Source: a virus
Strand: one strand, 5' to 3'
IMG/VR virus record: IMGVR_UViG_3300036835_000136
Span: 1-42,052 of that record
Length of the DNA: 42,052 nt
Made by a program: the position numbers and the translations under genes. Positions 36,915-39,314 of this stretch are shown here, one piece after another; position 1 is the stretch's first letter, and each line of letters opens with the position of its first letter. Below the pieces are notes generated by a model. That model was not told the DNA's origin, did no database searches, and worked only from the letters and a program-made list of their open reading frames with translations.

Positions 36915-37247
36915 CTAGGCTGCCTGCATGTTGTAGAGGGCGCTTACTACTGTCTGTAAGGCGTAGCCGCTGTACACTTGCCCGCTTGAGAAGCGCAATA
37001 CACGGTAGTTCATCAGGACGGCGGTGTTATATTTCACCGCGTCGTCTTCAAATCCCTTACCGGTGACGTGGCGACCGCCGGTATAGACCCCGCCTTCAAT
37101 CTCGATTATCAGACGCTCAGACACAAAGCAGAAATCATTGCGCCAGTGACGTTTGATTGACTTGGCGAAAAGATATTCACGCTTTGGATGCAAACCGAGC
37201 GCGGCCATATCTTCCGCCAATTTTTCGACTGCTGGTTTCTTGCTCAT
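36915..37247 (-). CDS. PD-(D/E)XK endonuclease of the phage DUF559-like type
   Basis: ATG 37247 opens a 110-residue protein. The sequence PKREYLFAKSIKRHWRNDFCFVSERLIIEIEGGVYTGGRHVTGKGFEDDAVKYNTAVLMNYRVLRFSSGQV matches a common small phage endonuclease: D38, E49/E51 and the GRH-x-x-GxGFExD-x-x-KYN block. It is close to Vsr/DUF559 nucleases and may resolve recombination or replication intermediates. The frame extends to 37391 through the GG arrays, giving a false Gly/Trp-periodic N-terminus, which I exclude. Its leader is array D and the sequence after it. Confidence 0.8.
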   Translation of the reverse strand: MSKKPAVEKLAEDMAALGLHPKREYLFAKSIKRHWRNDFCFVSERLIIEIEGGVYTGGRHVTGKGFEDDAVKYNTAVLMNYRVLRFSSGQVYSGYALQTVVSALYNMQAA

Positions 37248-37280
37248 ACCTGGCTGCCTTTGATAATCGAACGATAAGAA

Positions 37281-37337
37281 CCACGCCGCGCCAAACCACG
37301 CCAGTCCTGACCATGCCTTGCCTGAAAAGGCCACGCC
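37281..37337 (-). repeat. GG-pentad array D
   Basis: GG at 11 of 12 positions spaced five bases from 37281 to 37336; the exception is 37326. It ends 34 bases before the endonuclease start codon. Confidence 0.8.
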
Positions 37338-37346
37338 TCGATTGTC

Positions 37347-37377
37347 AGCCGCCTGCGGAATCACCCAACAAGCGGCT
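37347..37377 (-). ncRNA. Hairpin 3
   Basis: AGCCGC/GCGGCT stem with a less regular inner stem and a loop containing GGGTGATT, aligned with GGGTGAAA of the other hairpins. The linker 37338-37346 reads GACAATCGA. Confidence 0.6.
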
Positions 37378-37444
37378 CCCTGCCAAACCACACCAATCCG
37401 TAACCCACCCTGCCACTCCCAACCGAACCCGGCCCTGCCGAGCC
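37378..37444 (-). repeat. GG-pentad array C
   Basis: GG at 13 of 14 positions spaced five bases from 37378 to 37443; the only exception is 37403. Confidence 0.8.
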
Positions 37445-37453
37445 GCGATTGTT

Positions 37454-37484
37454 GGCGAGCGCCGGTTTCACCCGAACGCTAGCC
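37454..37484 (-). ncRNA. Hairpin 2
   Basis: GGCTAGCG pairs with CGCTCGCC (one mismatch), and an inner CGG/CCG closes a loop with GTGAAA. GGGTGAAA sits at the same place as in hairpin 1. The linker 37445-37453 reads AACAATCGC. Confidence 0.6.
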
Positions 37485-37571
37485 CCTTGCCGCACCAGGC
37501 CCGTCCTCTCCTGACCGCACAACGCCGCTCCCGGCCTGAGCACACCCAACCATGCCTTACGCCACCTAGCC
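37485..37571 (-). repeat. GG-pentad array B
   Basis: GG at 15 of 18 positions spaced five bases from 37485 to 37570; exceptions are 37520, 37540 and 37560. The intervening triplets are almost all different, so this is not simple slippage. Confidence 0.75.
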
Positions 37572-37580
37572 TTGATTGAC

Positions 37581-37610
37581 CGCTGGCTAGGCTTTCACCC
37601 CTAACCAGCG
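37581..37610 (-). ncRNA. Hairpin 1
   Basis: CGCTGG/CCAGCG, a mismatch, then TAGG/CCTA; the 8-nt loop region contains GGTGAAAG. The following linker 37572-37580 reads GTCAATCAA in the transcript. Confidence 0.6.
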
Positions 37611-37667
37611 CCTTGCCTTACCAAGCCGCAACCCGCCTAGCCGTGACTCGCGTTGCCGCACCGTGCC
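37611..37667 (-). repeat. GG-pentad array A
   Basis: Minus-strand GG (CC on the plus strand) falls at every fifth base from 37611: 9 of 12 positions match, the exceptions being 37631, 37646 and 37651. It begins about 11 bases after the stop codon of the upstream gene (37679) and ends at hairpin 1. Confidence 0.7.
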
Positions 37668-37678
37668 GCGCGAGACGA

Positions 37679-38224
37679 CTATCCCGCGCGCTTTTCGGCG
37701 CCCTCCTCCTCTGGCGGAAGCAACTCGCGCTCCCACTGGCGAAGGGAATAGCCCGGCGGACGTGGCGGACGTGGCCGCGACATCTCTATCGCCTGCCGGA
37801 TCATCCCCAACTTGCCGAGCGCCTCATGACGCCGCGTGACTTGTGCGGCGGTCAATTCATCACGGCGCGCATAGATCAGCTTGTTGGCGCCCTGGACGTT
37901 CGCCCGGCGCATCTCTCTCACTGCTTTGCGCTCCGCGACCTCCGCCGTATCCTGCTGCGCGATGACCTTGTAGCCACGCGCATGCAGACTCTCGACATGA
38001 ATCCCATGCGCGATCAGCAGTTGCGCGCGCCATGCCTCCACGCGGCGCATGCGGACGATCTGCCATGCCTGAAATTTGTCTGTCTGGCGCGGCTTACTTC
38101 CCACGCCCAGCGCAGAATCAAGCCAGGCATGGGTAAAGACATGTTCAGCTTTGGCCGTCTCAGCGGCGATCAGCGCGGCATGATTGACGATCTCTTGCTC
38201 AGTCTGTTCTATCTCGTCTGACAT
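37679..38224 (-). CDS. Conserved-looking phage protein of unknown function
   Basis: ATG 38224 follows AAGGAGGAAT; the frame to 38290 is not used. The 181-residue protein has a helical start (EIEQTEQEIVNHAALIAAETAKAEHVFTHAWLDSALGVGSKPRQTDKFQAWQIVRMRRVEAWRAQLLIAHGIHVES). A charged middle (GYKVIAQQDTAEVAERKAVREMRRA) and a Pro/Arg-rich tail follow. I recall similar proteins in other phages next to replication genes, without known function. It is paired with the gene at 38229 (four-base gap), and the two are bracketed by the GG arrays. Confidence 0.6.
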   Translation of the reverse strand: MSDEIEQTEQEIVNHAALIAAETAKAEHVFTHAWLDSALGVGSKPRQTDKFQAWQIVRMRRVEAWRAQLLIAHGIHVESLHARGYKVIAQQDTAEVAERKAVREMRRANVQGANKLIYARRDELTAAQVTRRHEALGKLGMIRQAIEMSRPRPPRPPGYSLRQWERELLPPEEEGAEKRAG

Positions 38225-38228
38225 CCGG

Positions 38229-38819
38229 CTATTCCTCCTTGCGCCCTGTGAGCGCAACGGTGAAGCGGCCATGCGTTGGGCGATAATCACCTAAGCCAAC
38301 GCGCCGTCCTGCCGTCTCCAAAATGCGGCAGATGTCTTCAGGGTCAATCAACTCGCCATCCACTGAGAGCGAGAATGACGCCGACCAGTCAAGGAAAATC
38401 GGGCGCGCCCGATTGACTGTGCGGCCCATGACGCGCGCCGGGCGAAGATCAAAGAATCGCCCGTCATCGTAAAGGCCGGTGATGTCGCGTGGTCCGTCGT
38501 AGCGAAGCGGGATACGCGACTCGTCTACCATCACTGCCTCAAGAATGGACTTGCCTTGCTTTGTCTTCTTGGCGGCGTCGCGCAGACATGCCAGCATCAT
38601 TTCAGCCGGGATGTACGGACCTGTCTTGGCGTCGTGATACATCCCTAGCTCCCATTCAATGCGAGCGATTTCGTCCAAGTCTTCTTCGCTCTTGGTTCGC
38701 TTGGCCGTGATTGCCTTGAGTTGTTTCGCCAGCGGCTCGCGCGGATTGACGCCTCGGTTAGAGTGCATCAGAAATGGCGCAGTGCCGGTAATCGTGAACT
38801 GTAATTGCTCGATTGCCAT
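38229..38819 (-). CDS. Conserved phage protein, possible RAMP-like fold
   Basis: A 196-residue protein: LQFTITGTAPFLMHSNRGVNPREPLAKQLKAI at the start, GPYIPAEMMLACLRDAAKKTKQGKS in the middle, then WSASFSLSVDGELIDPEDICRILETAGRRVGLGDYRPTHGRFTVAL at the end. The closing glycine-rich segment after a helix, with strands on both sides, recalls the glycine loop of RAMP/Cas7-type ferredoxin-like RNA-binding proteins. Similar proteins are familiar in phage genomes as hypothetical proteins. The array E leader lies directly before it and arrays A-D follow its partner gene. An RNA-binding role is inference. Confidence 0.6.
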   Translation of the reverse strand: MAIEQLQFTITGTAPFLMHSNRGVNPREPLAKQLKAITAKRTKSEEDLDEIARIEWELGMYHDAKTGPYIPAEMMLACLRDAAKKTKQGKSILEAVMVDESRIPLRYDGPRDITGLYDDGRFFDLRPARVMGRTVNRARPIFLDWSASFSLSVDGELIDPEDICRILETAGRRVGLGDYRPTHGRFTVALTGRKEE

Positions 38820-38837: not shown

Positions 38838-38949
38838 TTGCGTTTGAGGCCCCGCTATGCTAAAATCCCTGTGCGGGGCAATGTCTCATCTCTCTCACGG
38901 TCTCTCTCCTGCGAACGCTCGTCACACCCAATGGCGAGCGTTTCTCTTT
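38838..38949 (+). ncRNA. Candidate antisense small RNA and its promoter
   Basis: On the plus strand TTGCGT (38838-38843) and TAAAAT (38861-38866, preceded by TGC) are 17 bp apart. A hairpin AACGCTCG/CGAGCGTT (38914-38942) followed by TTTCTCTTT could terminate the transcript, giving an RNA of roughly 75 nt. It would be pyrimidine-rich and antisense to the leader of the gene at 38229. Confidence 0.35.
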
Positions 38950-38981: not shown

Positions 38982-39051
38982 CCAAGCCGTACCTAGCCAT
39001 GCCAAGCCTCTCCGCGCCCCACCCAACCTCGCCATTCCATACCGAGCCTAG
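38982..39051 (-). repeat. GG-pentad array E
   Basis: GG occurs at all 14 positions spaced five bases from 38982 to 39047. The triplets between them vary (CTC, TAT, AAT, CGA, TTG and so on). The array starts about 20 bases after the stop of the upstream gene and lies in the leader of the gene at 38229. Confidence 0.85.
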
Positions 39052-39071
39052 AGCGGTGACTGAAGCCGGTA

Positions 39072-39314
39072 TCACCCAAGCCTCAGTCGCTTCATCTCGA
39101 CTACTCGGCGTGCCGCCATCGCATCAGTCCGCTGCGCGTATGGCAGAAGAAGCGCAAAGACAAATTCGCCTCCACACTCCATCGTGCCTGCCAGCGAGTA
39201 GCGCGCGCCGGACGTGTCGTCGATGATCGCCAGCGGCGTCTCAGGTGGCGTGTTCACGTCCGGCCATAAGCCAGACTGCGACGGCGTTGCGGGTTGCGGT
39301 TGTGGTTTACGCAT
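39072..39314 (-). CDS. Small early protein of unknown function
   Basis: An 80-residue protein overlapping the preceding gene by eight bases. The N-terminal 30 residues are Pro/Gln-rich and basic. The rest (LAIIDDTSGARYSLAGTMECGGEFVFALLLPYAQRTDAMAARRVVEMKRLRLG) looks like a small alpha/beta unit. Nothing identifies it. It is the last gene before array E. Confidence 0.55.
   Translation of the reverse strand: MRKPQPQPATPSQSGLWPDVNTPPETPLAIIDDTSGARYSLAGTMECGGEFVFALLLPYAQRTDAMAARRVVEMKRLRLG

Follow-up and report, generated by a model that had tools for sequence, protein, structure and literature searches.

What is a series of GG dinucleotides, repeated every five nucleotides and interrupted by hairpins, doing in the DNA of an uncultivated phage? 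The question is raised by positions 37,248 to 37,678 of a 42,052-nt stretch of viral DNA (IMG/VR record IMGVR_UViG_3300036835_000136; hereafter "the window"). A preliminary description, made by a blind reading of the raw sequence, reported a composite non-coding element there and recognised no named family. That last statement is now superseded. The arrays are the guide RNAs (vrRNAs) of VIPR (Viral Interference Programmable Repeat), and we are highly confident that the region holds the vrRNAs lying downstream of the genes in a complete VIPR system resembling type II, with a proposed role in Vipr-guided DNA silencing. The system itself is known; the present phage adds a complete new example, and its signature was recovered independently by the blind reading.

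The region contains four arrays, all on the minus strand: A (37611..37667, GG at 9/12 positions, 11 units), B (37485..37571, 15/18, 17 units), C (37378..37444, 13/14, 13 units) and D (37281..37337, 11/12, 11 units). The GG counts of the preliminary description proved exact for all four. It missed two protein genes and a fifth array, E (38982..39048, minus strand), which lies about 1.3 kb upstream of the A-D cluster in the sense of transcription and is perfect (14/14 GG, 13 GGYNN units). Array A is degenerate, and several GG positions are broken in both A and B. The 5-nt period is far from random expectation. The A-D stretch holds 39 GG pairs at lag 5 against 13.8±3.4 (maximum 26) in 1000 dinucleotide-preserving shuffles, and its best GG run scores 12, where none of 2000 such shuffles exceeded 7. 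The units are non-identical. The original proposal of a selected period, not one made by slippage, is supported. Stop codons are present in each of the three minus-strand frames across the A-D stretch, which is thus non-coding.

Across the 65 units of the five arrays, the first two columns are G in 61 (94%) and 60 (92%) units, the third base is a pyrimidine in 57 (88%), and the last two bases show no consensus. The unit is therefore GGYNN. The triplets between GG pairs had been called diverse, which holds for their last two bases and not for the first. A search of the A-D region against Rfam returned no matching family, and BLASTN against phages gave no match. No consensus sigma-70 promoter was found in the locus, a consensus that need not be the one used by whatever host this phage infects.

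Between array E and the A-D cluster lie the two protein genes. The first, vipr (38229..38819, minus strand), encodes a 196-aa RAMP/Cas7-like protein identified by both homology and fold. It matches the family phrog_4652 (E-value = 1.3e-51), and its residues 6-191, nearly the whole length, match one solved structure, the "SUSP1 Vipr protein" (PDB 36pp, 36pp_D; E-value = 6.9e-31). It is 35% identical to the Vipr of Escherichia phage SUSP1. An AlphaFold model (pLDDT 93, pTM 0.87) submitted to Foldseek retrieved Csm3/Cas7-type CRISPR backbone subunits as the best PDB folds (E-value about 1e-6). In the C-terminal glycine-rich segment GLGDYRPTHGRF, residues G171, G175, R180 and P181 are invariant. 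The second gene (37679..38224, minus strand; phrog_5926) starts with an ATG 4 bases past the vipr stop. Its product matches those of the genes following vipr in the Pseudomonas phages LESphi2 and Medea1 and in SUSP1 (phmmer, in-sample E-values 4e-12 to 2e-8); we named it vap1 from its position and its homology to the SUSP1 gene. The minus strand thus carries the whole locus, in the transcriptional order vrRNA E, vipr, vap1 and vrRNAs A-D. No close relative of the phage was found in the phage collection. The gene directly after array D (36915-37247, minus strand) encodes a phrog_503 protein with a weak, below cut-off, DUF559-like match; judged from its sequence it is possibly a nuclease.

A 2026 preprint (PMC13142463) introduced VIPR as a phage-encoded system built from the RAMP protein Vipr, the accessory gene vap and vrRNAs that consist of 9-16 YNNGG units. 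The published vrRNA consensus has a conserved GGY and a hypervariable NN; the NN dinucleotides pair with DNA, one target base being skipped between them, and this leads to transcriptional silencing (PMC13142463). Vipr is characterised there as a RAMP homologue with an RRM core, a glycine-rich loop and a thumb. In SUSP1, one vrRNA lies upstream and three downstream of the two genes, and an invariable structured 3' tail follows each tract (PMC13142463).

We re-derived the SUSP1 locus and found arrays of like kind at places matching those in the present phage. As in the SUSP1 type II VIPR, homologues of vipr and vap1 are adjacent in identical order, the YNNGG tracts have about 9-16 units in which GGY is conserved and NN varies freely, a single vrRNA stands upstream and the others downstream, and everything is on one strand. 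Arrays A, C, D and E fall inside the published range of unit numbers, and array B, with its 17 units, is one above it. Unlike SUSP1, which has four vrRNAs, the present phage has five. The Vipr homology, the SUSP1-like arrays and the strand-specific association of such arrays with vipr described below lead us to the identification given above. In the phage itself, this identification is based on the sequence signature, the genes, their homology, the fold, the layout and the hairpin covariation.

The 5-nt period is not a peculiarity of this phage. The preliminary description suggested searching phages for ten or more GG at 5-nt spacing; the pattern (GGNNN)9GG is found in at least 119 stretches of viral contigs, nearly all of GGYNN form, and a few G-homopolymer tracts among the matches listed are artefacts. 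In a set of 80 Vipr loci collected from IMG/VR with an alignment query, strong arrays are found on the vipr strand in 55 loci and on the opposite strand in one, while the control periods of 3, 4, 6 and 7 nt occur in 0-2 of the 80. Several of the other 25 loci contain degenerate arrays below the threshold. Related loci thus have arrays associated with the Vipr family, and no ordinary protein-coding gene in their place. In some of the Vipr loci (L151, 1646-2430; L162, 2810-3470) GC keeps the 5-nt period better than GG, with net scores of 11 to 14; on their sequence, these GC-period arrays are apparently a relaxed form of the consensus.

A compact element between the arrays distinguishes the present locus. 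The preliminary description of three similar hairpins of 30-31 nt, each followed by a nine-base linker containing CAATC, is accurate. On the minus strand, hairpin h1 (37610-37581, 30 nt, carrying GGGTGAAA) with its linker GTCAATCAA occupies 37572..37610; h2 (37484-37454, 31 nt, also with GGGTGAAA) with AACAATCGC occupies 37445..37484; and h3 (37377-37347, 31 nt, with GGGTGATT) with GACAATCGA occupies 37338..37377. A fourth copy (39088-39058, minus strand, loop GGGTGATACC), making up the element 39049..39088 with its 9-nt linker, stands directly 5' of array E at the identical 9-nt distance. The hairpins share an apex, GGGTGAWW, and are otherwise non-identical. Comparing the four copies, both sides change in 7 of the 11 base pairs, a value reached by none of 500 shuffles and lost when the partner strand is slid; this test uses four sequences, from which the structure itself was derived. 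A covariance model recovers the four copies (the one before E, which belonged to the training set, with 49.6 bits) and finds no convincing match in the 79 other Vipr loci (best E-value 0.52). The hairpin therefore appears to be lineage-specific. In SUSP1 the equivalent space is filled by a pseudoknotted tail and a second hairpin, about 70 nt in all, in contrast to the single hairpin and 9-nt linker observed here. The locus is thus a complete and divergent example of VIPR with a much shorter inter-guide element, which should help to define the essential parts of a vrRNA.

It also raises the question of the position of the handle. A, B and C each run at their 3' end directly into a hairpin, whereas no copy of the GGGTGA hairpin is found on the 3' side of D or E, in contrast to SUSP1 with its invariable 3' tail. 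On the other hand, each of B, C, D and E is preceded by a hairpin at a distance of exactly 9 nt. With four of the five arrays preceded and three followed by a hairpin, the layout suits a 5' handle no less than it suits the published 3' tail. We tentatively raise the possibility that the structured hairpin of this phage is a 5' handle and not the 3' tail described for VIPR, without giving it preference. If true, Vipr would load from the opposite end of the RNA, or VIPR would have vrRNAs of two polarities. An additional hairpin (AACGCTCG-CCATTGGGTGTGA-CGAGCGTT, loop TTGGGTG) is located at 38905-38945 on the minus strand, 40-50 nt past array E. It may be one more copy of the array hairpin, since diverged, and is terminator-like when read on the plus strand.

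How would such a locus act? Formation of the ribonucleoprotein, the xNN code and silencing are taken from the preprint's account of relatives (PMC13142463). In the present phage, the arrays would be transcribed and the RNA then split at the hairpins. The Cas7-like RAMP Vipr would polymerise along each (GGYNN)n tract, and we infer one subunit per 5-nt unit. GGY would be held against the protein, and the NN dinucleotides would read double-stranded DNA through base pairing that follows the xNN rule, in which one target base is skipped between dinucleotides. By this rule, a 13-unit tract would read 26 bases over about 38 bp. Assuming that the present copy is expressed and active, the Vipr-coated array would recognise its target, a gapped stretch of DNA, in a competing phage, satellite or prophage. 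Since the vipr-vap pair is without a nuclease, transcriptional silencing is the expected outcome, and Vap1, of DNA-binding type, may help it.

The fold of the Vipr model is that of the backbone of Class 1 CRISPR-Cas systems (Cas7/Csm3), and the two systems would share a protein that multimerises on a guide RNA and a pairing that is periodically interrupted. They differ in that here a 5-nt GGY/NN period is written in the RNA, instead of contiguous spacers read with a 6-nt period. There are no CRISPR repeats, the inter-array hairpins differ from each other, and no other cas gene family was found among the ten window proteins searched, which include the neighbours of the locus. The preprint proposes VIPR as a pre-CRISPR, phage-borne form of RNA-guided DNA recognition with a non-contiguous code (PMC13142463).

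Candidate targets were sought with exact 9-unit xNN patterns, a search that misses mismatched targets. Patterns from A, C, D and E had no match in viral contigs. Array B gave five matches in viral contigs and array E four in genome contigs. These numbers are at chance level, and none of the matches extends past the searched units save one of array E, which gains one additional unit, in locus L134. Within the window, allowing skips of 0-2 nt, no self-target rose above the background of other loci.

These searches bear on the alternative that the arrays are a decoy or regulatory RNA, binding Vipr or a TRAP-like ring or filament protein to titrate it or to autoregulate its production, with no DNA targeting. 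The exact searches yielded no target for any of the five arrays, and the broken GG positions of A and B would also suit such a role. Yet the collections searched may lack the target and an exact search passes over mismatched ones; the NN positions are without consensus, as guides predict and pure binding sites do not; and guide function is proven for relatives that carry this pair of genes (PMC13142463). We regard the decoy as improbable. TRAP, the trp RNA-binding attenuation protein, binds as a multimer to targets made up of some 11 triplets spaced by about 5 nt. The present arrays would likewise offer regularly spaced triplets to a multimeric protein. TRAP recognises (G/U)AG and is an mtrB-like protein, whereas the conserved triplet here is GGY, flanked by variable NN, and the neighbouring gene encodes a RAMP fold. 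The TRAP reading was rejected on these grounds.

The preliminary description judged that neither TRAP nor two-quartet G-quadruplexes fitted all the features, and our results agree on both. The G2N3 spacing could permit two-quartet G-quadruplexes, so that the region might be imagined as structural G-rich DNA or RNA (quadruplexes or an R-loop) with no protein partner, serving for example packaging or replication. G-quadruplexes have no need of the pyrimidine that dominates the third position, nor does this reading account for the adjacent vipr and the 55-to-1 strand bias across the 80 loci; we rejected it as extremely unlikely. Minus-strand ORFs do overlap part of the region, as would be expected of a decayed coding sequence, an origin to be considered along with a slippage repeat. 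Against both stand the stop codons present in every minus-strand frame and the differences between the units, and the period persists in more than 100 diverse viral sequences. In relatives, arrays are seen beside vipr and no intact conserved gene takes their place. The coding reading was accordingly discarded, and we give decay or slippage virtually no credence. The vrRNA reading is retained.

In actinophages and in several IMG/VR VIPR loci, a segment beside the arrays resembles a mini-tRNA, with a 5-7-bp acceptor, a connector of approximately 12 nt and a T arm that carries GTTCGANTC and is often followed by ACGC. Such segments are located at L129 (3580-3760), L131 (1650-1690, 2990-3030) and L132 (2740-2930, 4200-4400), and similar structures are also present in L046, L145, L162, L164, L165, L179, L182 and L192. 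Rfam does not call them tRNA, and the main text of the preprint contains no mention of tRNA (PMC13142463). The 98.6 kb near arrays contain 20 of these structures, compared with 16 in the 1.47 Mb lying elsewhere and 2 on the reverse strand. Their presence near the arrays suggests that the RNAs of these loci may be processed by RNase P or RNase Z.
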